Assembly (NCBI GenBank): GCA_948144175.1
Contig: CANXME010002095.1
Coordinates: 407,501-471,500 of the forward strand
DNA length: 64,000 nucleotides
Direction: 5' to 3'
Origin: Closterium sp. NIES-65
Lineage: Eukaryota; Streptophyta; Zygnematophyceae; Desmidiales; Closteriaceae
Shown here: positions 1 to 49,440 of the stretch, one piece after another
Position numbering within the stretch: position 1 is the first letter of the stretch
How the letters are laid out: every line of letters starts with the position of its first letter
Translations under genes and position numbers: made by a program
The notes under the pieces: generated by a model
Databases searched by the model: none
What the model was told of the DNA's origin: nothing
The model's input: only the letters and a program-made list of their open reading frames with translations

Positions 1-119
1 TTCCTGCAGGAGTGCCAGGCAGCATGGGGGCAGAGCATCTCCGGGTGGAGTGGTGAGATTCCGGACTGCAGCAGTGCCACGGGCCTCACGTGCGATCCCT
101 CCGGCATGATCGTGATCAT
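1..119 (+). CDS. Exon: LRR N-terminal cap (partial gene start)
   Basis: Frame 1 reads FLQECQAAWGQSISGW, then a Cys, GLTCDP and GMIVIM up to a GTAAGG donor at 120. The pattern of a conserved Trp followed by Cys...Cys just before the first repeat is that of the plant LRRNT_2 cap. The exon ends in phase 2 (AT|G), the phase used by all following LRR exons. The true start and signal peptide lie outside the window. Confidence 0.75.
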
Positions 120-3100
120 GTAAGGCGATGAGAGAGGCGATGCGAGGGAGGCTATGGGAGTGAGAGGATGGGAGTGAGAGGATGGGAGCTTAGTTGGCAG
201 TTTTACGTTTTTTTTGGTCACGCAAAGGTGTAAGTTTACCTTTACCTTTCACTACTCGTAATTTAGATCGAAGTTGCTCGGGCACGGCAAAAGAAAAAAA
301 CAAAGGCTACCCCAAATATGCAGCCCCATCCGATCCGACCATCACGAGGCAGTAACATGGCAGTGTATGCACGAAGCATCTGTAAGGTGATGTAAGTTGT
401 TAAAATGCTTAACACGGGAGAATCAAATGTTACGTACACGTAAACCCCCGTAAGCGTGAAGTGCCAAGCCAACTTAAGATGGGAGTGAGAGTATGGGAGT
501 GAGAGGATGGTAGTGAGAGGTTGGGAGTGAGAGTATGGGAGTCAGAGGATGAGTCTGAGAGGCCATGATGTACTTATTGCCATTTTTGAGAACCCATGCT
601 CAGTGCTCACCATTATTGACACGCCATCATTGGCACACCATCGTTCACACGCCTCATTGTCACACCACATTCACTCACCATCATTGTGACACCACCATTC
701 ACTCACCATCATCACACCACCATTCACTCACCATCATTGTCACACCACTCACCATGATTGTGACACCATTACTCACACACAAACACATCATCACCACACC
801 ATAAAACAGGCAACTCCGGAACTACAAGCTGGGAGGGCAGATTCCAAACTCCCTCAGCAGCCTCAAGAAGCTCATTTATCTGTACGTCCTCTCCTCAGTG
901 CCGTGTTGCCCTGAGACTCAGGGCCTGAGGTTTTGCATCAGGGAAATGCAACTCCACTTTTCTTCCCACAGCACAGCTACGCCTCTTCCCAAAGCACAGG
1001 TTTCTTTTCACCACCCCTTCTCCAGCCCACCCCTCCCTCCTCCCGCGTTTTTCCCTGTCTTTGCCCCCGTTTCCCATTTCTGGCCTCCCTCTAAGCCGTT
1101 AACATTTTTTTGCTCTCTCCCCCTATCTCTCTATTCCTAGCCCTCTTACCTCTTCTGATCCCCTGTACCTCACTGGCCAGTTGTCATCGGGCCTAATAAA
1201 AAGCTGTGGCCAGCTGTCTATCCATGTGGCTGGCTAAGTTGGCCTGACCAACTAACCGAGCCGAGGATTGGCTCGGTAAACCATCGAGCCTAGCCTCTGA
1301 CTTTGCGTTGCAGCTCGCAGCGAGCCCGTCCTGAGTGCTTTTCTGGTATGTGGCGTGGCGTGCTTCGGCGAGTCTTGTAGCAGCTTAGTTGAGGAGACGA
1401 GAAGTAGGAATCCGAGTCGTGGTTGTCAATCCGGGGATAAAATGAGCTTCATATCTGGTTATTTCAGCTTTATGTCTGGTTCTTTTCATTTTGTTTCGTA
1501 TCATTACTTTCTGCTCCTTCGCCTCGCTAGGCCCATACTTCTCCACATCACCATATCCTTCCGAAACCTTGGTTAGCTCTAATTCCTTGAGAATTCACCT
1601 TTTTTCGCTTCCAGTAGAACGACTTGTCGAGTAGTACTCGAGCAGAACCATTTCACAGGCAAGCCACTAGAGGCTTGTGGCCGGCCGCTTGTGGCAGGGT
1701 GGCTTGTGGCCGGCCAGGCCAACTCCCGGCTCACCGGAATGGCCCATTTGTGAGCCGGACAAAGGCAGCTGAGCTCGTGTTGCACATACTTGGCTCAACT
1801 CGGGATAACGACAGCTGACTCCAGCTGGAGCCAAGCTGGCTCGGCTCGGACCCGTGCTCAGGCCTATACATGGGCAAACGAGTCGAGTTTTTCCTCGAAT
1901 TGTTCGAGGGACTCGAAAAGCTCGAGTTTCGAGTTTGTTTTTTTGTAAAAAAAACTCGGTTGCTCGAGTCGAGTTTTGCTCGCGAGTTAAAAAAACTCGT
2001 GAAAAACTCGGCTACCAAGCAAGTTTTTTCAAAACTCGCAAGTTTTGGGGGCTCCTGAGCATTTTGCCACCAGATCCGCCCGCGCCTAGCATTCCGCCGC
2101 TAGATCCGCCCGCACCTAGCATTCCGCCGCCAGATCCGGCCGCCCCTAGCATTCCGCCGCCAGATCCGGCCGCACCTAGCATTCCGCCGCCAGATCCGCC
2201 CGCACATAGCATTCCGCCGCTAGATCCGCCCGCACCTAGCACTCCGCTGCCAGATCTGAACGCACATAGCATTCCGCCGCTAGATCTGCCCGCACCTAGC
2301 ATTCCGCCGCCAGATCCGCCGGCACATAGCATTCCGCCGCTAGATCCGCCCGCACCTAGCATTCCGCCGCCATATCTGCCCGCACATAGCATTCCGCCGC
2401 TAGATCCGCGCGGCATTTCCTTTCACTAAACTGGTTTCGTGGGGTGGTGGGTAAGGGGGGTGTTTAACAACGAGTCGAGTTTTACTTGACTCGGACGAGT
2501 TTTCTTTGAACTCGTCCGAGTGTTGAAAAAACTCGGTAATATGGTCGAGTTTCGAGTTTGCTTTGTGGCACAAAAAACTTGGCGAGTTTTCCTCGACTCG
2601 ACTCGTGTGTGACAAAAAAATCGTCAAAACGAATCAAGTAAAACTCGACTCGTCTTTTGCCCATGTATACTCAGGCCCATGGCTAAGGCTCTGCTCGGGG
2701 ATGGGCGGGCGATACGGGCCGGTCTGGTCGCAAAGGTGGGCAGGCCTCATGGTTTTTCTTCCTTGTGGTTTGCTCAACTGCTAGGCCCGCCCCCCTTGCT
2801 ACCGTCATCGTGTCCTCACAGCGATCTCACAAGCAACCAGTTGCCAGGCAGCATCCCTGCCACCGTGACTGCGCTCAGCCTGCTGCAATACCTGTGAGTG
2901 TGATGCACACCGGACAACGCCCTGCCACGTGTTTTCTTTGTTCTGGTCCCCTCTCTCCCTGTCCGTGCACGCGCACGCATGCATGTCCGCATGCTCGTAC
3001 GCACACAACCCCTGTTTCTCTGTCCGTGCAGGTGGCTCTTCAACAATACACTCACCGGCGCTATCCCGGCTGACATTGGCTCACTGACCAGTATGATCAC

Positions 3101-6100
3101 CCTGTGAGGTTTCTTGCTGCTGCTGCTCTTTCAAGCATCACTCGTCCCTTCTCCACTCCTCTTACGTCCTCCACGTGTGCTTGTCTATTATTTTTTTTTG
3201 CACTGCACTCTACTCTGCCTGCCCTACTTGCCTTGGCTGCTCCCTTCCTTGCTCGCTCCCCTTATCACTTGTGTTCCTTTCCTCCCATCATTCCAACGTC
3301 CCCCAATGGAAAAAAGAGGTGGTCTATTCTACACTACCCATTTACACGCTAGCTTAAATGCATCTCACACTCGTGGGGGGATGGGGCAGATGCTAGAAAT
3401 ACGCAGTGTCCGCTGATATGGACGTCTGGTAAGTGGGTGGGTGATAGGGGAAGGGAAAAATGTGTTACTGGGCCCGCTACTTCCGTTAAGAGTTACGGAC
3501 GTTTACATGGGCAGGAAACATGACCCCCCTATCATGTAAGTCGAGTTCTTTTAGTGGACCAGTTGAGATTGGATGCGTAGAGGGAACGGGTCTGGAGAAG
3601 TTTGGGGGGAGTGAACGTGTTGGGAAAAGGGTTGGGGGTGCAGATGTCGGTTAAAAGAGCCGAGCTGACGGCATGTTGTGGCAAAATTAGTCTCCAGACT
3701 TCGGAAGGAAGCTGGGTTGTGAATGAAGGGAATGGAATATTAGAAACAAAGCTGGCGATCGTATCCTGCTCTTGTCATGTTGCGCAACCTCTTTGTTGTG
3801 TCAATTCAATACACCTTGCATTGACTTGTCATGAGGCGGCCTCCCTCAGCTATCTCTTCTCCAACATGCTTTCTGGCTCCGTGCCCTCCTCAATCACAGA
3901 GCTGAGTGCACTGACGATTTTGTGAGACATTTACTCCACTGCAACGAGCTTGCTTATGGCAGGCTCGCCTAAGGGATACGTACGCCAACTAAGAAGCAAT
4001 TTTCCTATTTTCCAAGCATGCCCTTCTGTCTTATGTGCTTCTGCCTGCCTCACGTGCTTCTGCCTTGTGCTCTTCCTTTGTGAACGAGTTATTGTTGTGT
4101 TGCCGAGGTGTAGCTTTTACGAGCCAGGTCCCACACATGCTTCTGCATTCTCCTGTAGATATCATGTTCACCACATCCTTGTGTGCTCTTGACAGAGGAA
4201 TTGGCACGTTCGTCTGTCGTACAGCCAACGCTTCACTTTTATATTTAGTTGTGCAAATGCAGCACACCTCAGGCAAGGCGAGTATTACTTGCTACGCACG
4301 GATTATTCATGTGCAACGAGGTGAGCTTCTCCGCGGCTCGTACGGTGGACTCGTTCAACGACGAGTGATGGTTTTGAGTTATGGCGAGAAAAACATGTCC
4401 GAGCCGAGCCGAGTATTGCTCGGCGAGTTTTAAGAACTCGCCGAGCACTCGTCAGTTCGACGAGCTTTTAAAAAAACTCGCCGAGCAGAGGAAAAAAAAC
4501 ATCGTCGCGATTTAGCGATGGCATCTTGGTATAGCAGACGAACTAGTTGTGGGACATTCATGAAATCCAGTTGATCGAGATCTAAAACTTGTAAATCTAA
4601 CATTGACGCTCACAATTCCAGATCTCAAGTTGGTTGGGTTTTCTAGATTCAGTGTGGTGAAGATCGGTAATGGGAGGGGGGTTGGAAGCAAAATGGTTCA
4701 CAAATCTGTGGGCTGCGGGGTACGAATTCTAATTTTGACCTAGCTTTTCTTTTCCCAATTTCTCCCACACCTCTCCCGAAGCTGTTTCTAGAAAGTTTGG
4801 CCTGCTCGTTGCAAAGCAGAGGCGCGCAACTCTTCAGCCCTAGCTTTTGATAGTTAGGAGTGGCTGCACTGCAATGCTACAAGCCGAGCTTTGCTCGCAC
4901 TCGTTCGAGCATTTTTCAAAACTCGGCCGAGCTTTAAAAAAAGCTCGTCAAACATGACGAGTGGCGAGTTCTGTTCTTCGCGGAAAAGGCTCGTCCGAGC
5001 AAAACTCGGCTCATTGAAAAGCTCGCACGAGCTTGACCTGTGACGAGCCGAGTTTTGCTCGGCTCGTGCCAATGCCCATGTATAGCACGGATCACCGTCA
5101 TTGTCATCGTAACCTACCTACCCACGGAAGGACGTAGGCGAGTACTACTACTGTCTCAGCAATGAGTAAAATTTTACTCCTGACAAGGAAAAAAATGTGA
5201 TTGCCAAAAGTGACGAGGCGGCGAGAGTCGAGAAGCTCCTCATCCGAGTAGTACTACTAGCCTCGCATTGTTGCACCTCCAAACAACGCGAGCATCACTT
5301 AACGCGCTACTTGCTCAGAATTATATATTTCCATGCAAACGCATCTTCAACCACTCGTCCTCATGGCACTGGCCCCATTGTTTGAACACCCTGAGTGGGA
5401 CAGGTCGCTGGCCTCCAACCAGCTCAACGGCTCCATCCCGGCTGACATTGGCGTCCTCACCAAGTTGACAAGCATGTAAGAAGATACGCTCTTGTTGTTC
5501 TTCTCACATCTCCCGTGTAGTTCCAAGATTCTTTTCCCGCACTGTTCAGTTTACCTCACCTTCTGTGCTCTCCCTCGACTCCTTCCTGTTTCCCTTGATT
5601 TCTCTGTTGAATAATTTTCTTCACCAGTCTATCTCCACTTAGGTGCCTCTTGCTTGTAATCATTTTCTCACAGTCTCTTTTCAGCAGATTAATGCCGTAA
5701 AATCATATTTGTGTGACTCTTGATGTTTCTCCCAAATGTATGCGTAGCGTCATGCCTCTTCTTCCGTCTCCAAGAAACGACCATCTTCTTTTGCTATTCA
5801 CCCTTCTGGTATTCCCAAACCTCATCGCCGTCCCGCCTCTCTTCTGTCCGTCCATTCTTGTCTTGTATCCTCCCACCTCACATTAATCCCAGTGATTTTT
5901 TTTCAATATCTAAATACATATATATATATACATATATATATATATATTTTTTTACTCAGAGACTTTTCAAGCAACCAACTGTCTGGCAGCATTCCGGCTA
6001 CCATCAGCACACTCACCCAAGTTTCTTACCTGTTAGTGACACTCTAGTCTCGTCTCAGGGGAGCTTTTCTCATCTACATGTGAAACGTGTTGCGCGTTTG

Positions 6101-42100: not shown

Positions 42101-45100
42101 CCTTCCTGCTTCTCCCCGAACAGTCACACGTAATCCAGGTGAGACATCGTCTCCCATGCTTCTGTTGCGACTCTCGCAACTACCTCCGTTAGAAGGACAA
42201 AAGAGGCAAGCATTGTGACAGTGTGATTGTTATTATCATCTTATAATGTGTACAGACGTTTCCCCTCGCGTTTGTTTATCTTTCCACATGTATCCTTCAC
42301 TCTCCGTCTTACCATGTTTTTCTTTTCTTCTGGAGGTTCTTTGTACTAAATACTCATGCATTCCGTACATTGGGTGTAAGAAAGAAGAATAACCTAGACA
42401 GTGTGGTTGATGGTGCACAGCACGGTGGTTGATGGTGCACAGCACGGTGCGCATAAATCTGAAGCAAACTGGAAAATGGAGAAGCTGAGCAACTTCGTTT
42501 ATGGAATTAGGGAAGCGAATTTTTTATGAGAGACATGCATGAACCACGCTTGAACGGAGTGCTTGTTTGGTGGATGTTGTAATGACCACTTGAGGTGCAG
42601 ATGTTATTGGATAAGGGTTGCAGTTCAGCAACGTTAGGGCAATGCACCCCAGACCATTGTACTCATTATCCCCCTTCAAGTTCTATCTTGTAACAACTTG
42701 TCACTTTCACATCTCATTCCTTTCTCTATAATTCAACTTCTGAGCATATCACAGCCTATGGCCTGCAGCTATCAACGAACACATACATGCCAGAACGGGC
42801 CAGCCCCTTCCCGCGCTATGTGAGTGCGGACTACCGTGTTGCGCCCAGCAAGCAGGACTCGTGGGTCATCAGCGACTTCCACTCCTGGGACTCCGTGCCC
42901 TTCCTCGGCTGGCCCGTCAAGGACCAAAGAGACTGCAGTGAGTGAAACCAATGGGAACCTGTAGAAGCATATTGGAGCTGATAGCTGGGCTGGTGTCTTG
43001 GTTAGTTGCTACAATCTGCGTCTTTCCATTTGCTGTTCTGCTGCTGGTCACTTTCATGTTTCAACTATCGCACAATAATCAGGGCAATATGAGTCTTCAT
43101 CATTTTTCAGCCGTCATCGCATGAGCTTCAATTATTCACGAACCAATTTTCATCATACGCAGGTGCTTGTTGGGCGTTTGCGCTGGTGGCGAGTGTGGAA
43201 GCGGCATACGGCATTGCCTTGAATGCACAGGCACCGCAGCTGTCAGTGGAGTCACTCTTTGCAGCCATGGGGCTCACCTCCGAAGCTGACAAGTGCAGCA
43301 CGGGGGGCTCCCCCACCGAGGCGTTGGAAAGGCTTCTCATGCTGCCTCACGGTGGAGTCATAGAGGTTGGAGCGCCTGTGAGTAGTGTGGTGAAGTGTGA
43401 TTCCAGAGATTTGAAGTGGTGTGCCCTAGGGATGAGCAAGGTGGCGAACATCTGTTCGGTTCGCCTCGAACACGTTCGAGGCGAACCGAACAGGTTTTGT
43501 TTTTTAGCTCAAATCGTTCGCCGAACAGTGTTCAATGTTCGCCCGAACACGTTCGTGTTCGGGCCGCTGCTGAAATTTGCCCGCGACGAACACGAATAGT
43601 GTTCGAGGTTTGCCCGAACACGCCTCCACAGGCGAACAGCGAACACCTGTTTTTTCCTAAACTGTTCGCCGAACCGAATAGTGTTCGGTTCGGCAAAAGA
43701 GGGTGTTCGACAACGGGCGAAGACGAACATGTTCGTGTTCGCCCTTTGCTCATCCCTAGTGTGCCCGACGTTGAGAGAGTTGCGACTATACTTCAACTGG
43801 TGATATGAGGACTGTCTCCGAGTCGTTGAAGCCACTGGCATTGGTTGCAACTTATAACCGAGTTGAACTAATTTTCCATCGGCATACGAGTGCCCCTGCA
43901 GTCTGATACGCAATGATAGAGTGGCCGGATCGGGGCCAAGAGACCGAGTTATGGCAGCAAGAGGCAAACAGCTTCTACCAAGCATGATCAACGGTCAGCT
44001 AAGGTCGGCTTGCCACGAGCCGGAAGGGGCCGAGCCAGACTTAAGAGTTCCATAACATTCAGAAGGCAACGTATAGGGTACAAAATGAATATTCTAATCA
44101 TTTTGTAATGCACCCAACATTCTGCTGCTTTCTATGATTGGCCGCCATCATTTTCCACAAGCAAACTTTTGTTTTCCATTGTGACCTCCTTTTATGTTTC
44201 TTTCTCTTCCTTCCTATCTGTAATTAAATCCCCTATGAAATGTTCATCTTTAGAAAAAGAAGTACCCTGTTCATGGCTTTGAGCGCACAAGGTTCAAGGA
44301 GTTTGTGGGGCTCATGCTGGCAGTGCGTCGACAGCCAGTGGTGGTTCACATTGAGGCTTCTGCTCTGAGTTTTGCACAATATGACGGGGTGGGTGTTTCT
44401 TGCGTTGACCCTTCATTCTGTGCACAAGTTGTCAAGAGTTGTACAGAAGTTGTTGTTCGCATTACCTGTATGCCAAAAACCAACCCAGGGTTGTACACAA
44501 GTTGTTACCAGCATTAACCTGTATGCCTGAAGTGGTACTTTGTTGTTTGTTGTTTCATCCCTCCATAACTGTTGTGGTGCCCCCTTTCTCCTCAGACCTT
44601 CAAGTACCAGGATCCTGGTTGCTACACCGGCAGACTGAACCACGTTGTACTCGTTATTGGATACTTCATCTTGAGAAATGACGGCAGCCAAAATCGCATA
44701 GCGCCTCCATTTTGGATCATCCGCAACTCGTGGGGAGTGGAGTGGGGTGACCGGGGCCACATGCGCATGGACATTCAGGGAGGGGATGGCGTGTGTGGCA
44801 TCAACGTGCTGCCTGGCATCTACCCCATTGTCAAGAGTGAGGCATTTATCTCGAGGTGTTGAGTGGGGCATCTACCTCGAGGTGTTGAGTGAGGCATCTA
44901 CCTCGAGGTGTTGAGTGAGGCATCTACCTCGAGGTGTTGAGTGAGGCATCTACCTCGAGGTGTTGAGTGAGGCATCTACCTCATTGTCTTAAATGGGGCA
45001 CCTTCCCCCATCGCTCTCTCCATATCTCAGTCCCCCCCTTCCAGTCCATCACAGGGTGTTTGGGGCAGGGTGAAATTCACAGAAGAATTATGTAATTAGT

Positions 45101-47528
45101 CTTTAGTTTAGGGGATGGCCTCAAATTTGGTATATGGAACACAGTGGAATGGAGGCATTGTCAATAGAGAGGAGTGTGAGCCAGTCACCAATCGCCAACT
45201 CACGGTTTCCAGATTTCACACCTGCCATTTGCCTAAGGCTTGCCTTTTCCTGCCCACGGTCGTTTTCAATGAGTTTGCACTCGCGCCTGTTTCTACACCT
45301 CCTGCTCCTATCTGTACCCCCCTCCAGTCCCCAAGGACCCTTGCGGCCAGAGGAGCTTCAAGGGTGATGGTGACCTGCAGCCCAGCATGAATCCGTGTGG
45401 GCGGTTCACATGCCAGGCTAACTTACGGAACAACAGCAATTCGTGTGACTGTTCCATTCCAAACGAATCTAATCAGCCATTTGTTCAAGCTGCAAACGGA
45501 TATGGCTCTCAAACGTGTGCTTACTGTAAGTTGTTTGGTTCAAGTTCTCAAATGATAACTTTTATTCATGGCCCTTGTCAGAACAATGGCCGTTTTTGGA
45601 ACAATGGGCTTGTTTGATCTTCAGATATTCTTTCAACCAAGTCCCTGTCTATATCTTTTCGTAGTTTCATCTCTCCTTCCCCCTACTCTTCCCATTGCTC
45701 CCAACACATGTATCTCTCTCACCACTGTGCTCCACAATTGTGTTTATGTCGCTTGGCAGTGGATGTGTGTGGGTCTGACTTGAAGAACCCATGCTACGTG
45801 GGCGCGTGCATCAACGACGGCAAGGGCTCCTACTCCTGCATCTGCCCCCCCAACTACGTTGAAAGCATAATCATCGATAGCTTCCCCACCTGCGACCCAG
45901 GTGCTGCTGGCTTGGCATCGTTTGTAAGAGGGTCGCTACTTCTTTCAGTTCTTCTTGAATCATATGTTGGGGTCATTACAGTTCTACTGTCAATTCATGT
46001 GATGCACACACAACTAGTAGTTTTGTTTTCTTGATTACTTTCTTATGCTTGTGTTCTCCTGCTTTCACATTTGTCGCTTTCCAGCCAACGTCACAGCCAG
46101 CACCCTGGCCGTGAGTGGGAGCAACTGGTGGTGCCCCGCTGTCCTCTCTATTGTGGGCCTCTCACTTCCCCAATTCACACAGCGGAATCAGGTAACCAAT
46201 GGAGATGGGGGGCCTGGAAGAGTGGATTGGCAGGCACGGCTAGTGGTTGATTCCTCACAATGGAATTCTAAGTCCCATAGCTGCTTATCTACAGTTTATG
46301 AAATCGTCAATGTGTGAAATGAAAACAATCACAAAAGCAATATTGCTACACCTTCACTTCATAGCTTTGTCTTCCTGTGTCCATTTACTTCCTGATTCGT
46401 CATGCAAACGATGTGCCATCCCCTGAAGTGGTGACTAAAGAATCGTGTGTGCTCCTCATTGCAGGGCATTGACTGCAATCAGGCTTTGCCTCGTAACATG
46501 GTGCTTCAGCTGGGAAATCCTCTCCTCGTTCCCTGCACTGCGTTCTTCTACACCCTCAGTGTGAGAGTTAGCCCTTTTTGTTTTTATTCGTTGAATGGAA
46601 TCTCGTCGAATTATTTTTCTATGTTTCCCCACTCTGCTTTGCTTAGCTCCGCAAGACTGTCGCATAGTAAAGCTGCGCTCCATTCACCTCAGGCATCTGT
46701 GCCTTCTCTCCCGTTGTTCAACCCTCCAGGGCGACACATGCTGGTCCATCAGTGCTCAGCTGTTCCTCACCACCAGCAACCTCACGGCACTCAATCCCGG
46801 CCTTGACTGCTCTGAGCCCATCAAGGCGGGCCGCTCTCTGTGCGTCGAGCGCAACGCCACCTTCGCCTTCACTGTGCCTCGGTGCCTACGTTACGGCGTG
46901 CTTACAGCACAGGACACATGTGAACGCCTGCTGCTAGAGGCGGGGAGTGAGGACGACCCAACGGGGGCTGGGAACGTGAACGCTGTGCGCTGGGCTGAGC
47001 TGTACCGCAACAATCCCGGCCTCATCTGCTCGAGTGTCATCCCGGTCTCCGCCTCTGCTGTTGGCAGCAACACTGGCGTGCAGGTGAGAGGTGGAGGTGA
47101 ACTGGGTTGGGGGCGCAAGAGATGGGAGGGAAATGGAGGGAAGATTGGTGGATGGACCAAACGTATACTTGATGGATGTTGGGGCAAGGAGTCATTTCTC
47201 ATATGCCAGCGTGGTGTTTTTTCCAACTATTTGCCCTTGATTGCCCGTTGAGTGTGTGCCTATCTCTTTCTCTCAATACATGTTTTTTTTTTCATTTCTT
47301 GTGTTTGTAAATGTCGCCGTTCAGATTTGCCTAAGGGCAGAGTATTGGTCATTCGTCGTTGGCATATGCAAGAAGGGCAGGCAAAAGCCAGTGTCACCAT
47401 CATTGACATGCTCAGGTGCTTACAGTTTTTATGGTGGAGCTGCCAATGGAGCAATTTCAAAATATTACGTGTACAATGAGAAGAAGTGTGTTGGAAGTGT
47501 AGGGTCCAAGTTCATTTGTGTGCCATGA
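1..47528 (+). CDS. Giant gene: LRR - EGF - legume lectin - papain peptidase - EGF - LysM protein (5' end outside window)
   Basis: Spliced model of 46 exons: 1-119; 32 exons of 72 bp (listed separately); then 40340-40686, 41144-41809, 42100-42138, 42755-42937, 43163-43377, 44254-44388, 44596-44836, 45328-45525, 45760-45900, 46085-46191, 46465-46560, 46730-47083 and 47325-47528. All introns are GT-AG except the acceptor before 22715. Summed length is 5349 nt, an exact multiple of 3, with no internal stop and a terminal TGA. Domain order is LRR N-terminal cap, about 32 LRRs, Cys-rich/EGF, L-type lectin, C1A peptidase, EGF, three LysM-like modules. No transmembrane segment is seen in the C-terminal half; the signal peptide would lie upstream of the window. 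Family knowledge suggests glycan binding (lectin, LysM), ligand recognition (LRR) and proteolysis. A role in the cell wall, microbe sensing or defence is inference. It could instead be two adjacent genes, but phase continuity across all junctions argues for one. Confidence 0.78.
120..809 (+). repeat. Intron with minisatellite and CA-rich tandem repeat
   Basis: About 153-190 and 478-560 carry a 14-bp unit close to ATGGGAGTGAGAGG. It is interrupted by a small inverted-repeat element (189-477). From about 600 to 790 there are imperfect repeats of CACCATCATTGTGACACCA and ACCATTCACTC. No gene is seen. Confidence 0.6.
189..477. mobile_element. Small MITE inserted in a minisatellite
   Basis: The ends read CTTAGTTGGC and GCCAACTTAA, nearly inverted copies. 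GATGGGAG flanks both sides (181-188 and 478-485), which would be an 8-bp hAT-type target duplication. The target is itself a tandem repeat of this word, so the duplication could be coincidental. No coding capacity. Confidence 0.45.
810..881 (+). CDS. LRR exon 1 (unique)
   Basis: 72 bp between an ACAG acceptor and a GTACGT donor, phase 2-2. It encodes LGGQIPNSLSSLKKLIYL, a plant-specific LRR (IPxxLxxLxxLxxL). Confidence 0.75.
1865..2669. mobile_element. Non-autonomous hAT element, ACTCG family, copy 1
   Basis: Termini are TATACATGGGCAAA and the inverse of TATACATGGGCAAAAG. A perfect 8-bp duplication CTCAGGCC flanks it (1857-1864, 2670-2677). Subterminal zones (1880-2045, 2465-2660) are dense in GAGTCGAG/CTCGAGT words in both orientations. 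The core is a 30-bp tandem array (2071-2410). No transposase is encoded. It closely resembles 11902-12703 and is related at its ends to 4304-5084. Confidence 0.85.
2071..2410. repeat. 30-bp tandem array inside the ACTCG-family element
   Basis: About 11 copies of a 30-bp unit built from AGATCCGCCCGCACCTAGCA and TTCCGCCGCC. Because the period is divisible by 3 it stays open on both strands, giving PPDPPAPSIP repeats on + and GGMLGAGGSG on -. The second element copy has the same array at 12108-12447. Confidence 0.85.
2822..2893 (+). CDS. LRR exon 2 (unique)
   Basis: 72 bp, phase 2-2, CACAG acceptor and GTGAGT donor. Encodes SNQLPGSIPATVTALSLLQY. Confidence 0.8.
3032..3103 (+). CDS. LRR exon 3 (unique)
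   Basis: 72 bp, phase 2-2, GCAG acceptor and GTGAGG donor, 138 bp after exon 2. Encodes NNTLTGAIPADIGSLTSMIT. Confidence 0.8.
3104..3849 (+). other. Intron, nothing recognised
   Basis: Pyrimidine-rich first half, mixed sequence afterwards. No gene, repeat array or element termini seen. Confidence 0.5.
3850..3921 (+). CDS. LRR exon 4 (unique)
   Basis: 72 bp, phase 2-2, CTCAG acceptor and GTGAGA donor. Encodes SNMLSGSVPSSITELSALTI, resembling the later type D repeats. Confidence 0.8.
4304..5084. mobile_element. Non-autonomous hAT element, CTCG-rich
   Basis: Lies in intron 3922-5403. Termini are TATTCATGTGCAACGAG and the inverse of TATACATGGGCATTGG. A perfect 8-bp duplication GCACGGAT flanks it (4296-4303, 5085-5092). 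Zones of GAGCCGAG/CTCGGC words occur near both ends (4320-4500, 4880-5070). The interior has no open frame of note. Related to 1865-2669 by termini and motif. Confidence 0.8.
5404..5475 (+). CDS. LRR exon, unit 1 type A
   Basis: 72 bp, phase 2-2, GGGACAG acceptor and GTAAGA donor. Encodes SLASNQLNGSIPADIGVLTK. First member of the recurring A-B-B*-C-D-E exon series. Confidence 0.85.
5476..5959 (+). other. Intron with AT microsatellite
   Basis: Pyrimidine-rich intron ending in a TA dinucleotide run (about 5917-5946) directly upstream of the next acceptor. Other copies of this intron (13175-13536, 21513-21874) lack the TA run. Confidence 0.6.
5960..6031 (+). CDS. LRR exon, unit 1 type B*
   Basis: 72 bp, phase 2-2, CTCAG acceptor and GTTAGT donor. 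Encodes DFSSNQLSGSIPATISTLTQ. Confidence 0.85.
7053..7255. repeat. 30-bp tandem array (GATCTGCGCAGA unit)
   Basis: About seven imperfect copies of a 30-bp unit beginning GATCTGCGCAGATTGGCGGA. Each unit contains the palindromic word GATCTGCGCAGATC or a variant. It translates to DLRRSAGEIA-like decapeptides but the frame closes at 7143, so it is not taken as a gene. Confidence 0.7.
7356..7687. mobile_element. 332-bp MITE, GTTCG family, copy 1
   Basis: Perfect inverted ends TAGGGATGAGCAA, identical to the termini of the hAT at 23173-27632. A perfect 8-bp duplication GGTCAGGG flanks it (7348-7355, 7688-7695). The body is arrays of GTTCG/CGAAC words. A second copy of the same length lies at 43427-43758. 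It is inserted inside another transposon, so it is the younger insertion. Confidence 0.9.
8364..8435 (+). CDS. LRR exon, unit 1 type C
   Basis: 72 bp, phase 2-2, GGCAG acceptor and GTAAGG donor. Encodes SLRSNQLTGSIPAELGSLLS. The donor region is duplicated downstream at 8591 by a small insertion. Confidence 0.85.
8454..8590 (-). mobile_element. Short retroposon-like insertion with 18-bp target duplication
   Basis: A 137-bp insert flanked by perfect 18-bp copies of GTAAGGCTCCTTTCTGCC (8436-8453, 8591-8608). Read on the - strand it ends in TGTCAATAAAGA. Long target duplications are typical of LINE/SINE-type integration, not hAT. Paralogous introns (14052 on, 20934 on) lack it. Family unknown. 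Confidence 0.6.
8849..9285 (-). repeat. Interspersed SINE-like repeat, copy 1
   Basis: Shares most of its length with 10885-11331, starting at GGATCGGTGAACTT and ending near a CTAAGAC word. On the - strand the start contains GGTCTTAGAGG and GTTCAATTC, which fits the Pol III B-box pattern GWTCRANNC. The A-to-B spacing is too short for an intact tRNA, so SINE origin is tentative. Confidence 0.4.
9656..9727 (+). CDS. LRR exon, unit 1 type D
   Basis: 72 bp, phase 2-2, ACAG acceptor and GTAATT donor. Encodes SNLLSGSVPSSITKLTALTF. Confidence 0.8.
9728..10234 (+). other. Intron, unit spacer
   Basis: Homologous to the D-to-E introns at 14459-17850 (apart from its hAT), 22787-27723 and 36335-36804. 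No gene seen. Confidence 0.6.
10235..10306 (+). CDS. LRR exon, unit 1 type E
   Basis: 72 bp, phase 2-2, TACAG acceptor and GTAAGG donor. Encodes SLANNQLTSSIPAGIGLLTK. Confidence 0.85.
10483..10512 (+). CDS. Candidate 30-bp chimeric exon (type A acceptor fused to type B* donor), unit 2
   Basis: The type A acceptor context GATTGGGACAG is followed by 30 bp ending in TTTCTCACCT and the type B* donor GTCAGT. A deletion has joined the start of exon A to the tail of exon B*. The remnant is 30 bp with phase 2 at both ends, so it would add ten residues without shifting the frame. I left it out of the 5349-nt sum; including it would not change the frame. Use as an exon is unproven. Confidence 0.45.
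10885..11331 (-). repeat. Interspersed SINE-like repeat, copy 2, with tandem-duplicated end
   Basis: Related to 8849-9285. On the - strand the start has TGGTCTTAGTGG and GTTCAACTC (B-box-like). Part of it, about 11217-11331, is repeated at 11353-11468. The following sequence (11480-11711) repeats the sequence that precedes the insertion (10643-10872). Confidence 0.45.
11721..11792 (+). CDS. LRR exon, unit 2 type C
   Basis: 72 bp, phase 2-2, GGCAG acceptor and GTAATG donor. Encodes SNQLTGSIPVEIGSLLSLAS. Confidence 0.8.
11902..12703. mobile_element. Non-autonomous hAT element, ACTCG family, copy 2
   Basis: Same termini, subterminal CTCGAGT arrays and 30-bp core array (12108-12447) as 1865-2669. 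Flanks are CTCAACGT (11894-11901) and CTCGACGG (12704-12711), a target duplication with two mismatches. The uninterrupted site is visible in paralogous introns at 14151 and 21037. Confidence 0.85.
12939..12964 (+). pseudogene. Truncated LRR exon type D, unit 2
   Basis: The acceptor and first 26 bp of a type D exon join directly to sequence normally found before a type A exon (AGCAATAACCGAACC). The rest of D, its donor and exon E are deleted. The same breakpoint occurs at 21277-21302. Confidence 0.8.
13103..13174 (+). CDS. LRR exon, unit 3 type A
   Basis: 72 bp, phase 2-2. Encodes SNQLNGSILDDTGVLTKLRS. The usual IPADIG core has changed to ILDDTG, losing the conserved Pro. Confidence 0.8.
13537..13608 (+). 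CDS. LRR exon, unit 3 type B*
   Basis: 72 bp, phase 2-2, CTCAG acceptor and GTCAGT donor. Encodes DVSSNQLSGSIPATISTLTQ. Confidence 0.8.
13980..14051 (+). CDS. LRR exon, unit 3 type C
   Basis: 72 bp, phase 2-2, GGCAG acceptor and GTAAGG donor. Encodes SNQLTGSIPVEIGSLLSLAS. Confidence 0.85.
14387..14458 (+). CDS. LRR exon, unit 3 type D
   Basis: 72 bp, phase 2-2, CACAG acceptor and GTAAAT donor. Encodes SNLLSGSLPSAITKLTALTF. Confidence 0.8.
14587..17500 (+). mobile_element. hAT element 1 (complete, apparently autonomous)
   Basis: A 2914-bp element in the D-to-E intron. Termini CTAAGTGGGAATATACGCT and the inverse of CTTAGTGGGAATATACGCT differ at one base. A perfect 8-bp duplication AATCAAGG flanks it (14579-14586, 17501-17508). 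Single-copy AATCAAGG with the same flanks occurs in paralogous introns near 22907 and 36457, proving the insertion. Subterminal zones (14597-14680, 17425-17495) repeat AGCGTATA-type words in both orientations. One transposase gene lies inside. Confidence 0.95.
15052..17115 (+). CDS. hAT transposase (687 aa, uninterrupted)
   Basis: Starts at ATG 15052 and is open to TGA at 17113-17115. Residues about 35-80 form a BED-like zinc finger (YECKFCSNVY, then a His in CAQHFTSW). Residues about 220-330 match the DUF659/RNase-H-like region, with SSDMMTD and AFCMDGWSNY carrying candidate catalytic Asp residues and CATHVLDLL as the usual Cys-His motif. The C-terminal dimerisation region (about 600-670) contains WWQWNG and SASPCERGWS. 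It cuts and pastes DNA with matching terminal repeats. Its length and lack of stops, together with near-perfect ends, suggest recent activity. Confidence 0.9.
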   Translation: MVPMSTTTTSPLTPSSVNTVGSSQTLLSEAREYLPDVDNAVFKHFRIIKRVEGKAQQYECKFCSNVYTGAAIRCAQHFTSWKGMKRREVVLCKDAPQDVRLAMRAKYEAKRAAAEEKRRAAAEAVAAVKANGVKRACITDYLEGDAAARKREADEALALAWAALHIPERHIDHPLMVNALNLVKRAGVDYVPPKRKYIGGAGLLSCRNGIEQGLVGIKASWKRTGVTVSSDMMTDRNGRPQANVLLVNDSGAVFTDCIDCNMERKTGGYVAGILRPVVEEVGPKNVVAFCMDGWSNYAVAVKQLLQEWPHIQDVPCATHVLDLLMEDVGKMGWAKPVVDKGGEISSFVRNHHWTRGYLRKPELVEGKVLQALKPAGTRFGTNYIAISRLCAMRGSLTNMVTSEGWKEWAVGDRKKSCDGFSALIHDAAWWKTAKLFVALLKLPFKVMRQTDGHAVGMMGRLYDLMLQLTEDVGGLLDADEEQLSDGDKDKIRRILRDRWDGSLACAMHVAGRILNPANQEEDIFGTDPECTKVFKAFLSQQAEFLASRGDGGDDACDILLELGDGLRAFLDMKGSFGMPEAVAQRKMVKEGKYSMVKWWQWNGTDAPRVAGLAVQVLSQAVSASPCERGWSSWDAVHTARRNRLGSAKCRDLVYVAHNWNVVRNRDTRVDALPHVVPGIGAEPPIPA
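17851..17922 (+). CDS. LRR exon, unit 3 type E
   Basis: 72 bp, phase 2-2, GACAG acceptor and GTAAGG donor. Encodes SLANNRLTSSIPAGIGLLTK. Confidence 0.85.
18104..18175 (+). CDS. LRR exon, unit 4 type A
   Basis: 72 bp, phase 2-2. Encodes SLASNQLNGSIPADIGALTK. Confidence 0.85.
18617..18688 (+). CDS. LRR exon, unit 4 type B
   Basis: 72 bp, phase 2-2, TTCAG acceptor and GTTAGT donor. Encodes AFSSNQLSGSIPAAISTLAQ. Type B is distinct from B* (Ala for Thr, LAQLLCL ending). Confidence 0.85.
18689..20487 (+). repeat. 1.8-kb intron segment, copy 1 of 3
   Basis: Nearly identical to 33592-35395 and 37643-39471. It contains blocks of GGGTCGG/CCGACCC words (19200-19380, 19780-20090) like the subterminal zones of hAT element 3, so it probably includes a non-autonomous relative. 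I could not fix that element's ends. In this copy the following B* exon is deleted; in the other two it is present. Confidence 0.75.
20862..20933 (+). CDS. LRR exon, unit 4 type C
   Basis: 72 bp, phase 2-2, GGCAG acceptor and GTAAGG donor. Encodes SNQLTGSIPVEIGSLLSLTS. Confidence 0.85.
21277..21302 (+). pseudogene. Truncated LRR exon type D, unit 4
   Basis: The first 26 bp of a type D exon join to AGCAATAACCGAACC, the same junction as at 12964. Both copies therefore descend from one deletion followed by block duplication. Confidence 0.8.
21441..21512 (+). CDS. LRR exon, unit 5 type A
   Basis: 72 bp, phase 2-2. Encodes SNQLNGSIPDNTGVLTKLRS, sister to the variant at 13103. Confidence 0.85.
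21875..21946 (+). CDS. LRR exon, unit 5 type B*
   Basis: 72 bp, phase 2-2. Encodes DVSSNQLSGSIPATISTLTQ. Confidence 0.85.
22302..22373 (+). CDS. LRR exon, unit 5 type C
   Basis: 72 bp, phase 2-2, GGCAG acceptor and GTAAGG donor. Encodes SNQLTGSIPVEIGSLLSLAS. Confidence 0.85.
22715..22786 (+). CDS. LRR exon, unit 5 type D, with lost splice acceptor
   Basis: The 72 coding bases are intact (SNLLSGSLPSAITKLTALTF) but the acceptor reads CACAA instead of the CACAG of its paralogues at 14386 and 36262. The exon is probably skipped. Because it is symmetric, skipping would drop one repeat and keep the frame. Confidence 0.6.
23173..27632 (+). mobile_element. hAT element 2 (GTTCG family), inactivated
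   Basis: A 4460-bp element in the D-to-E intron with perfect inverted ends TAGGGATGAGCAA. Flanks are CTAGTAAT (23165-23172) and CTAATAAT (27633-27640), an 8-bp duplication with one difference; the empty site in the 36710 paralogue is CTAATAAT. Subterminal zones (23185-23380, 27430-27615) repeat GTTCG/CGAAC words. It contains a four-exon transposase gene with two stops. Confidence 0.92.
23758..27274 (+). pseudogene. hAT transposase with two nonsense codons
   Basis: Exons 23758-24894, 25067-25527, 25723-26017 and 26204-27274 (intron phases 0, 2, 0) total 988 codons including the stop. The N-terminal 230 residues are acidic and low complexity. A BED-like finger follows (QCKICTDRISW with HFASFH). 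RNase-H-like parts include SFTIDMWTSP, GFTSDNASSN and RCLAHVINLAV. The C-terminal dimerisation region has EYWRS and SSERVFSLGRN. In exon 2 a TGA (25130-25132) and a TAG (25310-25312) interrupt the frame; an Arg CGA and a Gln CAG are the likely originals. The first ATG in frame is at 23758. Confidence 0.85.
27724..27795 (+). CDS. LRR exon, unit 5 type E
   Basis: 72 bp, phase 2-2, GACAG acceptor and GTAAGG donor. Encodes SLANNRLTSSIPAGIGLLTK. It lies 91 bp beyond the end of hAT element 2. Confidence 0.85.
27977..28048 (+). CDS. LRR exon, unit 6 type A
   Basis: 72 bp, phase 2-2. Encodes SLASNQLNGSIPADIGALTK. Confidence 0.85.
28960..32852 (+). CDS. hAT transposase (about 936 aa, four exons)
   Basis: Exons 28960-30039, 30191-30663, 30788-31097 and 31905-32852 with intron phases 0, 2, 0, the same as in element 2. 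The N-terminal region is Gly/Ala/Ser-rich. A BED-like finger follows (NCKICKKKISW with HLKRSH). The catalytic region includes LTFDIWTGENN and AVTCDNAENN, then RCMAHVVNLAV. The C-terminal dimerisation region has LEYWRS and SSAASERAFSQSRN. ATG 28960 is the first in the open frame; an upstream exon cannot be excluded. No stop in any exon, so it may be functional. Confidence 0.85.
31170..31866. repeat. ATGCATG minisatellite in transposase intron 3
   Basis: About 700 bp of 19-bp units (CATCCCATGCATGTGCCAC) mixed with 23-bp units that have an extra GCAT. It fills most of the 807-bp intron between 31097 and 31905. Lack of stops makes every frame look open on both strands, which is an artefact of composition. 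Confidence 0.95.
33520..33591 (+). CDS. LRR exon, unit 6 type B
   Basis: 72 bp, phase 2-2. Encodes AVSSNQLSGSIPAAISTLAQ. Confidence 0.85.
33592..35395 (+). repeat. 1.8-kb intron segment, copy 2 of 3
   Basis: Matches 18689-20487 and 37643-39471 with scattered single-base differences. Contains GGGTCGG blocks at 34115-34280 and 34685-34995. Confidence 0.8.
35414..35485 (+). CDS. LRR exon, unit 6 type B*
   Basis: 72 bp, phase 2-2. Encodes DFSSNQLSGSIPATISTLTQ. Unit 6 is the only complete A-B-B*-C-D-E series. Confidence 0.85.
35857..35928 (+). CDS. LRR exon, unit 6 type C
   Basis: 72 bp, phase 2-2, GGCAG acceptor and GTAAGG donor. Encodes SNQLTGSIPVEIGSLLSLAS. Confidence 0.85.
36263..36334 (+). 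CDS. LRR exon, unit 6 type D
   Basis: 72 bp, phase 2-2, CACAG acceptor intact. Encodes SNLLSGSLPSAITKLTALTF. Confidence 0.85.
36805..36876 (+). CDS. LRR exon, unit 6 type E
   Basis: 72 bp, phase 2-2. Encodes SLANNRLTSSIPAGIGLLTK. The D-to-E intron here carries no transposon and serves as the empty-site reference. Confidence 0.85.
37058..37129 (+). CDS. LRR exon, unit 7 type A
   Basis: 72 bp, phase 2-2. Encodes SLASNQLNGSIPADIGALTK. Confidence 0.85.
37571..37642 (+). CDS. LRR exon, unit 7 type B
   Basis: 72 bp, phase 2-2. Encodes AVSSNQLSGSIPAAISTLAQ. Confidence 0.85.
37643..39471 (+). repeat. 1.8-kb intron segment, copy 3 of 3
   Basis: Third near-identical copy of the B-to-B* intron, with GGGTCGG blocks at 38170-38335 and 38740-39050. 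Confidence 0.8.
39485..39556 (+). CDS. LRR exon, unit 7 type B* (last 72-bp exon)
   Basis: 72 bp, phase 2-2. Encodes DFSSNQLSGSIPATISTLTQ. Downstream intron similarity to the other units stops near 39893, before a type C exon would appear. Confidence 0.85.
40340..40686 (+). CDS. Exon: last LRRs plus Cys-rich/EGF-like segment
   Basis: Enters in phase 2 and leaves in phase 1. It encodes DLSHNYLTGRALKLLAARTL and LYLSSNFLSGPLPDGAC, then Cys-rich sequence, a short Ala run and an EGF-like motif (CGGHGVCYPEG, then TCLCDAGFVQFGGITC). It links the LRR solenoid to the lectin domain. Confidence 0.8.
40687..41143 (+). other. Intron, nothing recognised
   Basis: Unique sequence between the EGF and lectin exons; no repeat or gene seen. 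Confidence 0.5.
41144..41809 (+). CDS. Exon: legume-type (L-type) lectin domain
   Basis: A 666-bp exon, phase 1-1, holding the whole domain. Recognisable blocks are VGFNGLAFVISATDQ, MAVEFDTLQNKEHGD, SSHHVGLNVRG, YTAWVDYEPG, IQVFLADS and FFFGFVAST, in the order seen in legume lectins and lectin-receptor kinases. AVEFDT and HVGLNV are the most diagnostic. Members usually bind sugars with Ca/Mn; whether the metal residues are complete was not verified. No kinase follows, unlike in lectin-receptor kinases. Confidence 0.85.
42100..42138 (+). CDS. 39-bp linker exon
   Basis: Phase 1-1, between GTGCAG and GTGAGA. Encodes LPASPRTVTRNP, a Pro/Thr/Arg-rich linker between lectin and peptidase. Confidence 0.6.
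42755..42937 (+). CDS. Exon: start of papain-like peptidase
   Basis: Phase 1-1. Encodes PSKQDSWVISDFHSWDSVPF and then WPVKDQRDC. VKDQ gives the oxyanion-hole Gln of C1A peptidases. The usual I29 propeptide (ERFNIN) is not seen upstream; the lectin and linker take its place. Confidence 0.8.
43163..43377 (+). CDS. Exon: papain active-site cysteine
   Basis: Phase 1 in, 0 out. Continues as SACWAFALVASVEAAYGIAL, where the Cys of CWAF is the nucleophile. CSTGGSPTEALERLL corresponds to the C-x-GG segment of papains. Confidence 0.85.
43427..43758. mobile_element. 332-bp MITE, GTTCG family, copy 2
   Basis: Same length and nearly the same sequence as 7356-7687, with perfect TAGGGATGAGCAA ends. A perfect 8-bp duplication GTGTGCCC flanks it (43419-43426, 43759-43766). 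It lies 49 bp after the active-site exon, inside the intron. Differences from copy 1 are mostly C-to-T or G-to-A. Confidence 0.92.
44254..44388 (+). CDS. Exon: papain middle segment
   Basis: Phase 0-0, 45 residues including LMLAVRRQPVVVHIEASALS and FAQYDG. It matches the papain stretch before the catalytic His (QPVSVAI-like, then F-x-Y-x-G). Confidence 0.8.
44596..44836 (+). CDS. Exon: papain catalytic His and Asn
   Basis: Phase 0 in, 1 out. LNHVVLVIGY carries the catalytic His, FWIIRNSWG the catalytic Asn, and GVCGIN is the usual C-terminal Cys motif. With CWAF in 43163-43377 the triad is complete, so an active enzyme is plausible. Confidence 0.88.
44837..44995 (+). repeat. 26-bp tandem repeat starting at a splice donor
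   Basis: Five to six copies of a 26-bp unit, GTGAGGCATCTACCTCGAGG followed by TGTTGA, begin exactly at the donor of exon 44596-44836. Each unit repeats a GA|GTGAGG-like donor word. Confidence 0.9.
45328..45525 (+). CDS. Exon: Cys-rich module after the peptidase
   Basis: Phase 1-1. Encodes KDPCGQRSFKGDG, then NPCGRFTCQANLRNNSNSCD and YGSQTCAY. Cys spacing suggests an EGF-like or related disulfide module. Family not named. Confidence 0.65.
45760..45900 (+). CDS. Exon: EGF-like module
   Basis: Phase 1-1. Encodes LDVCGSDLKNPCYVGACI, then GSYSCICPPNY and FPTCDPG; six Cys in EGF-like order including the C-x-C pair. A single 1-1 exon is the usual form of a shuffled EGF module. The donor is GTGCTG, a weak GT. 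Confidence 0.7.
46085..46191 (+). CDS. Exon: LysM-like module 1 (first half)
   Basis: Phase 1 in, 0 out. Encodes SNWWCPAVLSIVGLSLPQFT, joining to NQGIDCNQALP in the next exon, a divergent LysM pattern (W-C, F-x-x-x-N, D-C). Confidence 0.55.
46465..46560 (+). CDS. Exon: LysM-like 1 end and LysM 2 start
   Basis: Phase 0-0, 32 residues: GIDCNQALPRNMVLQLGNP, then PCTAFFYTLS, which leads directly into GDTC of the next exon. Confidence 0.65.
46730..47083 (+). CDS. Exon: LysM domains 2 and 3
   Basis: Phase 0-0, 118 residues. YTLS|GDTCWSISAQ, NLTALNPGLDC and IKAGRSLCV form a typical plant LysM. A second match follows with YGVLTAQDTCERLL, WAELYRNNPGLICSS and SNTGVQ. LysM domains bind chitin, peptidoglycan or related GlcNAc glycans. 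Confidence 0.8.
47325..47528 (+). CDS. Terminal exon
   Basis: Phase 0. ICLRAEYWSFVVGICKKG completes LysM 3, followed by TCSGAYSFYGG and KKCVGSVGSKFICVP, then TGA at 47526-47528. The Cys-rich tail has no hydrophobic anchor. Confidence 0.75.
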   Translation: MCLRAEYWSFVVGICKKGRQKPVSPSLTCSGAYSFYGGAANGAISKYYVYNEKKCVGSVGSKFICVP

Positions 47529-47824: not shown

Positions 47825-48252
47825 TGTTGGGCTGAAACGCCCTTGGATCTTTGTAGAGTTAAAGTCTGAGTAGGTGTTGTAATAGCGGAAGCGTTGAATA
47901 AAGTCCTTGAACCACCTTGCGCTAGTATGTGAGGGCAAAGTAAGTTGAGTAAAGCAAAGAGATACAGGAATATAAATATATGAGTACAGAGAATATGAAG
48001 AGACATTATAACTACTTTTACTGTTGCGGTTCGATACAGTGCGACTTGGGCAACTGCTCAATGTCGAGTCAGTTGTTTGTCCTTGCTGTCGCGCTGCGTC
48101 AGGTCAAAGGTCGCTGACCTTTGACTTTCTCGTAACCTCCAGCGGTTACGTTAACTTCCGAGGGTTGATTCGCGATGCTTCGATTTGAGCTGCTTCGCTT
48201 TGTGTCTTGAGTTCTGACACGACAGAGGCGCTTAACTTATTTGTTCCCAACA
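47825..48252 (-). repeat. Copia 1 3' LTR
   Basis: 428 bp, nearly identical to 52759-53184 (426 bp), with few substitutions and a 2-bp length difference, so a fairly young insertion. Confidence 0.93.
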
Positions 48253-49440
48253 CTCCCCTTCGCTTCTGGAGTGTCGCTGATGATGACGTGGTTTTGTCCA
48301 GTCAGCAGCATGCAGTACTCGAACTTCTGTTTTCCTAGTTTCTTGGTCAAGTAGTCAGCTGCCATCTCGGACGTAGGACAGTAGGATAGATCGAGTTTCC
48401 CTTTCTCGATTTCGTCTTTCACGAAGAAGTATCGCAAAGCGATATGCTTCGTTCTGTTCGCGAATCCGCTCTTGTTGGCGATGCGAATTGCAGATTGGTT
48501 GTCGCAGAACAAAGTGAAGTTAGGTAACTCGGCTAACTTCGCTTCTTCCAGCAGCTCGCGAAGGTAGAGTCCTTCCTTGGTGGCTGAGCAGAGGGCGATA
48601 TATTCTGCTACAGCTGAAGAGAGTGCAATTAGTTCTTGCTTGCTTGATTGCCAGGAGATAGGTCCGCTAGGTTCTAGGCGGTAGATGTAGCCAGTGCGGG
48701 AGCGCCTGTTATCTGAGTCGCCGGCGTGATCGGCATCGACGTAGCCGATTAGTTTCGTCGGCGTAGTTGTGTTTTTGTAGTACGTCAGGCCAATCGTTGC
48801 GGTGCTCACGAAGTAGTGAAGAGCGCGATCGAGTTCCGCCAGGTGTTCTGCTTCGGACCTCTTGAGATAGGTAGCAAGTTGACTTGCGGAGTAGGACAGA
48901 TCTGGGCGGCAGGTGACGGCTATGAAGAGGAGACAGCCCAGTTTTCGCTGGTAGTCGCGTATTCCGGCATTTTTGAGTAAGGCGGAGCTTCCTTTGCCGT
49001 TCCCTGCCGTGTAGCGGTATGGCGTGGAGATAGTAGCAGGTGTGAGCGCGAAGCGTTTGGCGATGGTGTCGGCATACTTTTCGGCGCTGAGGTAGATCGC
49101 ATTTTCTTCTTCGCGGATGTTGAGTCCGAGATATTGAGTGACGGTAGTGGAGACCGTGAGTGTGAGGTCCTTCTTCAGCTCCCCTTCGAACCAGGTAGTT
49201 ATGTCGTTGGTAGAACCGATGTAGAGTAGATCGTCGACGTAGACGATAAGCAGAATGTAGTTGGCGTCTTTGGTGAGTCGGTACATGCCTTGGTCGTGAG
49301 GCAGTTGACGGAATCCGATGCGAGTGAGGCGGGTGTGTAAGTGCTCTTGCCACAGCCGTGGGGCCTGTTTGATTCCGTAGAGTGATTTCAGTATCTGGCA
49401 AACCTGATTAGGTTCTTCGGATGCGTTGTCGACGTTCTGC
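48237..49440 (-). pseudogene. Copia 1 reverse transcriptase (C-terminal part) and RNase H
   Basis: In frame from about 49440, SLYGIKQAPRLW is followed by VYVDDLLYIG (RT active site) and YLGLNI. RNase H follows with GYVDADHAGD, DNQSAIRIANKSGF, TKHIALRYFF and AADYLTKKLG. The stop lies inside the LTR. The RT N-terminal motifs that should precede SLYG are absent. Confidence 0.85.

Follow-up and report, generated by a model that had tools for sequence, protein, structure and literature searches.

The DNA analysed here, referred to as the window, is a stretch of 64,000 nucleotides from Closterium sp. NIES-65, a unicellular zygnematophycean alga (Desmidiales) related to land plants, located at C1797:407501-471500 in a genome assembly of 874,075,685 bases and 2,400 contigs. 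On its plus strand, 46 exons (an LRR cap exon, 32 LRR exons and 13 further exons) join to give a single open frame that runs for 1,782 codons to a stop, with no frameshift or stop codon within them; the two alternative frames of the joined exons contain 57 and 48 stops. This agrees with the initial annotation, in which a single frame was proposed to run from an LRR cap through about 32 LRRs, an EGF-like segment, an L-type lectin, a C1A peptidase, another EGF-like segment and LysM modules to a stop. Nothing was found in the window with Rfam at gathering thresholds.

The first of these exons (1..119, donor at 120) encloses position 1, where a 5,000-N gap ends and hides its 5' end. A tblastn search that used N-terminal sequences from 11 proteins of the family located it, and its naming as an LRR N-terminal cap rests on similarity to them; the LRRNT family was absent from the Pfam results at E 0.01 for 33 long members. 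Upstream of the gap, at about -7,880 to -7,780, a signal-like exon was found that matches the N-termini of the public proteins P0066 and P0033. The Met of its nearest relative is not Met here and its likely donor is GC, so both start codon and donor are unsure. Measured from this exon to position 47528, with the gap counted as written (5,000 N), the gene is about 55 kb long.

To locate LRR exons, a profile was built on LRRs of the family itself and used in a scan that did not demand AG/GT borders. The plus strand of the window contains 32 stretches compatible with a 72-nt exon in which 23 codons are preceded by one base and followed by two, and a 33rd match falls within exon 40340-40686; the minus strand gave no match and one mononucleotide-shuffled window gave one. 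LRR exons 1 to 4 are located at 810..881, 2822..2893, 3032..3103 and 3850..3921. Comparison of arrays assigned the remaining ones to six types, A to F; exons 5 to 15 lie at 5404..5475 (type A), 5960..6031 (C), 8364..8435 (D), 9656..9727 (E), 10235..10306 (F), 11721..11792 (D), 13103..13174 (A), 13537..13608 (C), 13980..14051 (D), 14387..14458 (E) and 17851..17922 (F). Exons 16 to 24 follow at 18104..18175 (A), 18617..18688 (B), 20862..20933 (D), 21441..21512 (A), 21875..21946 (C), 22302..22373 (D), 22715..22786 (E), 27724..27795 (F) and 27977..28048 (A), and exons 25 to 32 at 33520..33591 (B), 35414..35485 (C), 35857..35928 (D), 36263..36334 (E), 36805..36876 (F), 37058..37129 (A), 37571..37642 (B) and 39485..39556 (C). 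All are in one phase (2-2), and 31 of the 32 are preceded by AG and followed by GT. The sole exception is LRR exon 22 at 22715, which has AA at the acceptor and was nevertheless included in the 1,782-codon join; the corresponding exon in two copies of about 99% identity (on contigs C863 and C1869) has AG.

The 13 exons between 40340 and 47528 are bordered by GT...AG throughout and stay in one frame, as the initial annotation had predicted from the GT-AG rules. They were placed by splicing, combined with the evidence given for each. The junction exon (40340..40686; LRR profile, C1825 paralogue) encodes a final LRR stretch that continues in frame into the first EGF-like segment. It is followed by the L-type (legume) lectin in one exon (41144..41809; Pfam) and a linker exon (42100..42138; C1825 paralogue). 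The C1A peptidase is spread over four exons: a pre-catalytic segment with the oxyanion Gln (42755..42937; Pfam, family alignment), the catalytic Cys exon (43163..43377; family alignment), a third exon (44254..44388; Pfam) and the exon with the catalytic His and Asn (44596..44836; alignment, genome exon search). Next come a Cys-rich exon (45328..45525; C1825 paralogue) and an EGF-like exon (45760..45900; Pfam). LysM-like module 1 begins at 46085..46191 and ends in exon 46465..46560, where LysM module 2 starts (both by profile comparison); exon 46730..47083 (Pfam, profile comparison) holds the rest of module 2 and LysM-like module 3, and the last exon, with the stop codon, is 47325..47528 (C1825 paralogue). 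Like shuffled extracellular modules, the exons of the lectin and of the second EGF-like segment are both of phase 1-1.

Domain assignments were based on Pfam and on comparison with solved structures. Peptidase_C1 (E 3.4e-25, 89.8 bits, curated cut-off 20.7), Lectin_legB (E 8.9e-21, 75.0 bits, cut-off 26.3) and LysM in module 2 (E 7.6e-10, 39.0 bits, cut-off 20.9) scored above their cut-offs, and EGF fell just under its own (19.3 bits, cut-off 21.5). The three LysM-like modules of the initial annotation were thus recovered, one by Pfam and the two flanking ones when their profiles were compared with that module (1.5e-10 and 9.2e-11). For one six-LRR unit, MIK2, FLS2 and PEPR1 were the best matches among solved structures; families of bacterial LRR proteins (NCBIfam XopAC, XopAE, internalin and others) gave generic LRR matches far under their cut-offs and were rejected. 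The peptidase resembles papains of the bromelain and ervatamin type; its best PDB match was FBSB (E 6.7e-22), followed by ervatamin, actinidin, ananain and ficin. The lectin matched legume lectins of solved structure weakly (best E 9.8e-6), and LysM module 2 matched chitinase A entries (E 9.3e-7 and 7.3e-3), presumably from horsetail and fern. Among 33 hand-chosen long members of the family, Pfam at E 0.01 identified Lectin_legB and Peptidase_C1 in all 33, LRR_1 in 32, EGF in 21 and LysM in 19.

Homology searches were made with the tail, with the lectin plus peptidase, and with the latter under a long-protein length filter. They yielded 143, 186 and 148 matches, respectively, and the 264 different proteins among the best 120 of each make up the homologue set used below. 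These all come from Closterium (strains NIES-53, 54, 64, 65, 67, 68, Yama58-4 and Naga37s-1); four of these strains, NIES-53, 54, 64 and 65, are assigned to the C. psl. complex (PMC10407611). No homologue outside Closterium was present among these best 120 matches of each search, for which about 8,000 candidates sharing exact words were scored; homologues in other genera may exist. The whole order LRR-lectin-C1A-EGF-LysM is found in 122 of the 264 listed homologues, part of it in 141 and another order in one. Two or more LRR matches are present in 107 of the 122 listed full-order proteins and five or more in 81, and a lone LRR match may be that of the junction exon.

A paralogue on contig C1825 provided a direct comparison for the gene structure. 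Its 13 tail exons have lengths identical to those of the window gene, GT-AG borders and an intact frame, and the two genes are 97.9% identical in exons and 95.4% in introns. For this one pair only, dN is 0.0155 and dS 0.0395 (dN/dS about 0.39). The genome was also searched for the lectin exon, which gave 160 matches of which the best 150 were used (279 candidates, 150 scored), and for the family's His/Asn peptidase exon, which gave 150 matches (251 candidates, 150 scored). At least 97 of the 150 listed lectin exons are followed on their own strand by a peptidase exon no more than 10 kb away; among the matches listed, none lies upstream at this distance and one lies on the other strand. At a distance of up to 15 kb, the numbers for the same 150 are 104 downstream, one upstream and three on the other strand, and within 20 kb downstream at least 106 of the listed lectin exons, on 43 contigs, have a peptidase exon. 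Some of these genomic copies may be segmental duplicates. With a catalytic-exon-like query, 91 matches were obtained in the genome, three of them with internal stop codons. On another contig, a region of 49 kb (G000:C2029:1003335-1052079) contains at least five family peptidase exons on one strand and is likely a tandem cluster.

The public protein models raise the question of whether the locus holds at least two adjacent genes, for an LRR protein and for a lectin-peptidase, that have been misread as one. The NIES-65 protein P0012 (681 aa), which shares 99% identity with the lectin-peptidase query across 85% of that query, is the public model of this locus; it covers 41431-47251 and begins in the middle of the lectin, uses an alternative donor in the catalytic exon, omits exon 45328-45525 and runs into the last intron. 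An LRR match is present in 165 of the 264 listed homologues and absent from 99, and 36 of the 264 have lectin-C1A-EGF-LysM without one. Many of the 99 are short or partial models. The junction exon joins LRR and EGF in one frame and is kept with its borders in the C1825 paralogue, the full order recurs in 122 of the listed homologues, and a peptidase exon upstream of a lectin exon is met with not at all within 10 kb and once within 15 kb among the matches listed. On the homologue domain order, the proximity of lectin and peptidase exons and the C1825 paralogue, the separate-gene reading was rejected, and we consider it extremely unlikely. The splice structure, the paralogue and the homologues thus uphold the earlier claim of a single chain, and the predicted order LRR, EGF, L-type lectin, C1A, EGF, LysM almost certainly belongs to one protein. 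Since the public model of the locus starts within the lectin, the family is easily missed.

The initial annotation had also named no known protein that joins two glycan-binding folds and an LRR solenoid to a peptidase, and our search was in line with this: no description of the architecture appeared among the open-licence papers listed, and no open-licence paper was found that names Lectin_legB together with Peptidase_C1. The main text of the genome paper on the Closterium strains does not mention lectin, peptidase, leucine, LysM, papain, protease or cathepsin. Judged by sequence, the window gene is one member of a large, unnamed family of putative recognition peptidases in Closterium.

Several repeats and mobile elements are located in and behind the gene. 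A hAT transposon with inverted termini and the direct repeats GTGTTGCC at its ends occupies 28302-33323 in an LRR intron and is absent from the copies of about 99% identity on C863 and C1869. Within an ORF with a hAT domain, a minisatellite (31167-31866) with nested periods of 19, 61, 84 and 145 bp keeps several frames open. Further hAT-type ORFs lie in LRR introns at 15049-17115 (DUF659 and Dimer_Tnp_hAT) and 25703-27274 (Dimer_Tnp_hAT), and ORFs of copia-type retrotransposons are found downstream of the gene at 48237-52077 on the minus strand and 55904-60154 on the plus strand. A tandem repeat with 5.7 copies of a 26-bp unit (44835-44982) starts at the donor site of the last peptidase exon and thereby repeats donor-like sequence. 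A stretch of 333 bp is present, at 97% identity, both in an LRR intron (7356-7688) and in the intron that follows the exon of the catalytic Cys (43427-43759), and is perhaps a short mobile repeat.

A possible reading is that the family is real and the window copy is decaying. The AA acceptor at 22715 and the hAT insertion at about 28302-33323 are both lacking in the C863 and C1869 copies, and for the signal-like exon both start codon and donor are uncertain. The 46 window exons are, however, free of stops and frameshifts, the insertion is intronic, and exon 22715 is symmetric, so that its skipping would preserve the frame. The dN/dS of about 0.39 to the single C1825 paralogue also argues against decay, which we regard as distinctly unlikely.

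The six LRR types recur in blocks, for example D-E-F-A-B-C, and by sequence comparison the LRR arrays are built from a recurring exon unit. For comparison with the array of the window, some 40 kb was read in front of each of five further lectin exons belonging to the subfamily, in stretches that end at 39-41 kb. Two of these (C863a and C1869) have the window's LRR order across the shared stretch, with long blocks of 98.7-99.5% identity. In C2024 and C863b the LRR orders are unlike that of the window, although the longest blocks are 97-98% identical, and in C1825 the order diverges further, with blocks of 86-91% identity. The LRR matches within the stretches read number 27 in C2024, 30 in C863b, 43 in C1825 and 33 in the window, which are not whole-array counts. 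Assembly error in tandem repeats may play a part in the order differences; three copies agree. Five of the six LRR unit types have an internal pN/pS of 0.31-0.61, and in these five the diversifying selection that an arms race should leave was not seen by this measure. Type B has a pN/pS of 3.44, a value resting on few changes.

The lectin was inspected for the residues of the L-type lectin metal site, Glu, Asp, Asn, Asp and His. All five are present in the window copy. Among non-gap rows of the listed homologues, Glu is found in 188/233, the first Asp in 218/233, Asn in 77/222 (Asp in 95), the second Asp in 211/219 and His in 223/236; the two Asp and the His are therefore nearly constant across the family, and Glu and Asn vary. 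At the loop-A position, where Asp is the sugar-binding residue of legume lectins, the window copy has Asn, not Asp. The 264 listed homologues have Asn in 136, Asp in 30, Glu in 21, Gly in 20, Ser in 18, Gln in 3 and a gap in 36. We count the Asn and its variation in the family against the recognition-peptidase explanation favoured below. A simple arms-race lectin model is disfavoured both by the varied loop-A residue and by most LRR units showing no diversifying selection.

In the peptidase of the window copy, the oxyanion Gln and the catalytic Cys, His and Asn are all present. Active sites could be read in 174 of the 264 listed homologues, and the 90 that are incomplete at catalytic positions were set aside: 138 have Gln-Cys-His-Asn, 31 have Gln-Ser-His-Asn and five have other combinations. 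Across the alignment of the 264, His occurs in 220 rows and Asn in 226, and neither is ever replaced by a different residue, the other rows having gaps. His (37/37) and Asn (38/38) are likewise kept wherever they are readable in the 43 Ser rows. A FastTree phylogeny was made of 153 rows including the window (126 Cys, 27 Ser), without the catalytic columns and leaving out rows of less than 85% coverage or lacking Cys or Ser at the site; its supports are local, with no bootstrap. The Cys/Ser label changes six times on this tree, where a change is a loss or a gain, and equally often when the starred branches alone are used; the Ser rows form groups of 12, 8 and 4 plus three single rows. Most Cys-type members are probably active peptidases. 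The Ser members could be either Ser-type peptidases or pseudoproteases, and their Ser-for-Cys replacement makes a decoy arm of the family possible.

To assess secretion, 67 LRR-lectin-C1A-LysM models starting with Met were analysed by 17-residue hydropathy, a crude measure. An N-terminal hydrophobic stretch (mean hydropathy of 2.0 or more within the first 80 residues) is present in 21 of the 67, including all 11 that carry the cap motif, and a C-terminal stretch (1.6 or more within the last 150 residues) in four. Pfam at E 0.01 detected no kinase family in the 33 long members. The protein is very probably secreted. The I29 inhibitor propeptide was equally absent from the Pfam results for these 33 at E 0.01, which we count against a secreted recognition peptidase as the product.

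The explanation that we favour, and to which we give roughly an even chance, is a secreted multidomain papain-type recognition peptidase, most likely directed at microbes or parasites. The protein would leave the cell, and its LRR solenoid and lectin would recognise a target surface by the proteins or glycans there. Its three LysM modules would anchor it to glycans of the GlcNAc type (chitin or peptidoglycan), where the tethered peptidase could cut surface proteins, and members with Ser at the nucleophile might serve as binding-only decoys or regulators. The likeliest setting would be extracellular recognition of microbes or parasites such as chytrids, the walls of which contain chitin, and variety could arise via gene copies and reshuffled LRR exons. 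Olpidium-like chytrids have been described as living inside Closterium (PMC10470594). Defence is our leading guess because all three recognition modules belong to plant pattern receptors, because LysM points to GlcNAc polymers, because the copy number is high and LRR orders vary between close copies, and because chytrids parasitise Closterium (PMC10470594). For the microbe-directed role taken by itself, we place the likelihood just short of even. The secreted glycan-guided protease or decoy suggested in the initial annotation fits the predicted parts.

The same modules might instead act in sexual recognition, reading the partner's wall or secreted glycoproteins while the peptidase softens walls or processes pheromones during conjugation. 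According to knockouts, Closterium conjugation requires the LRR protein CpRLP1 (PMC5736609), and concanavalin A disturbs it (PMC4942458). CpRLP1, however, is predicted to span the membrane and is described as LRR-only (PMC5736609). We also judge the gene number to be high for a mating factor, and a mating role appears unlikely to us. A further alternative is an extracellular-matrix or wall protein that binds the alga's own glycans and remodels its own wall and mucilage. EGF-like, LysM and lectin modules are found in matrix proteins, repeated similar LRR units would suit multivalent scaffold binding, and a pN/pS below 1 in five of six LRR unit types is consistent with such a role. Many paralogues and changing LRR arrays would, however, be unusual for housekeeping wall enzymes, and we know of no GlcNAc polymers as main components of zygnematophycean walls. 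This own-wall role we hold to be rather improbable.

On a broader scale, Closterium may have joined LRR, L-type lectin and LysM to a peptidase and not to a kinase, in about a hundred genes of one genome, with unequal exchange of LRR units and repeatedly evolved Ser decoys, and thereby combined recognition and cutting without a signalling cascade. We offer this picture tentatively, as possible and on the doubtful side. If microbes are recognised by the favoured secreted peptidase, the family would show that the receptor ectodomains carried by kinases in land plants have a further use, and it would open a test of defence in unicellular algae. The LRR-order differences between close paralogues are a natural experiment on repertoire formation, and the six Cys/Ser changes at the papain nucleophile are one on pseudoproteases.

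Parallels can be drawn with several known systems, some of them distant. Cwp84 of Clostridioides difficile belongs to a bacterial surface layer, its lectin-like fold and domain order are unlike those of the Closterium family, and it is not known to have LRR or LysM. It has a C1A peptidase fused to a lectin-like domain, which is a likeness (PMC10380794). The SERA proteins of Plasmodium resemble the Closterium proteins in how they work, as papain-like proteins of a multigene family that mixes Cys-type and Ser-type members. They belong to an unrelated lineage, we do not claim membership, and we know of no LRR, L-type lectin or LysM in them. SERA has been described as a papain-like multigene family with both types (PMC4671257, PMC2878606), and for the Ser-type SERA5 no activity was detected and a non-enzymatic role was reported (PMC4671257).

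Nearer likenesses are found among plant proteins. The LysM of plant chitinase A and fungal Ecp6 shares a sequence match with that of the Closterium family, in which, by contrast, three tandem Cys-bearing modules are C-terminal in a peptidase chain. L-type lectin receptor kinases have Lectin_legB over the curated cut-off, as does the window protein, whereas here the lectin is located between LRR and peptidase, with no kinase. Such kinases are also described in Zygnema, the genome paper of which counts 26 Lectin_legB architectures and, in its main text, does not mention Peptidase_C1 (PMC11096116). Plant-type LRRs of 24 residues and an N-terminal hydrophobic stretch are common to the Closterium family, LRR receptor kinases and LRR receptor-like proteins (FLS2, MIK2, PEPR1; CpRLP1). 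The family differs from them in having a peptidase instead of a kinase (33 members), and only 4 of 67 models have a strong C-terminal hydrophobic stretch. The plant papain-like C1A proteases share the C1A domain by sequence and the Gln, Cys, His and Asn residues with the window copy, and in land plants such proteases stand alone or with granulin. Compared with them, the Closterium family shows no I29 in the Pfam results for 33 members, has Ser at the nucleophile in some clades, and adds LRR, lectin, EGF and LysM modules to the peptidase.
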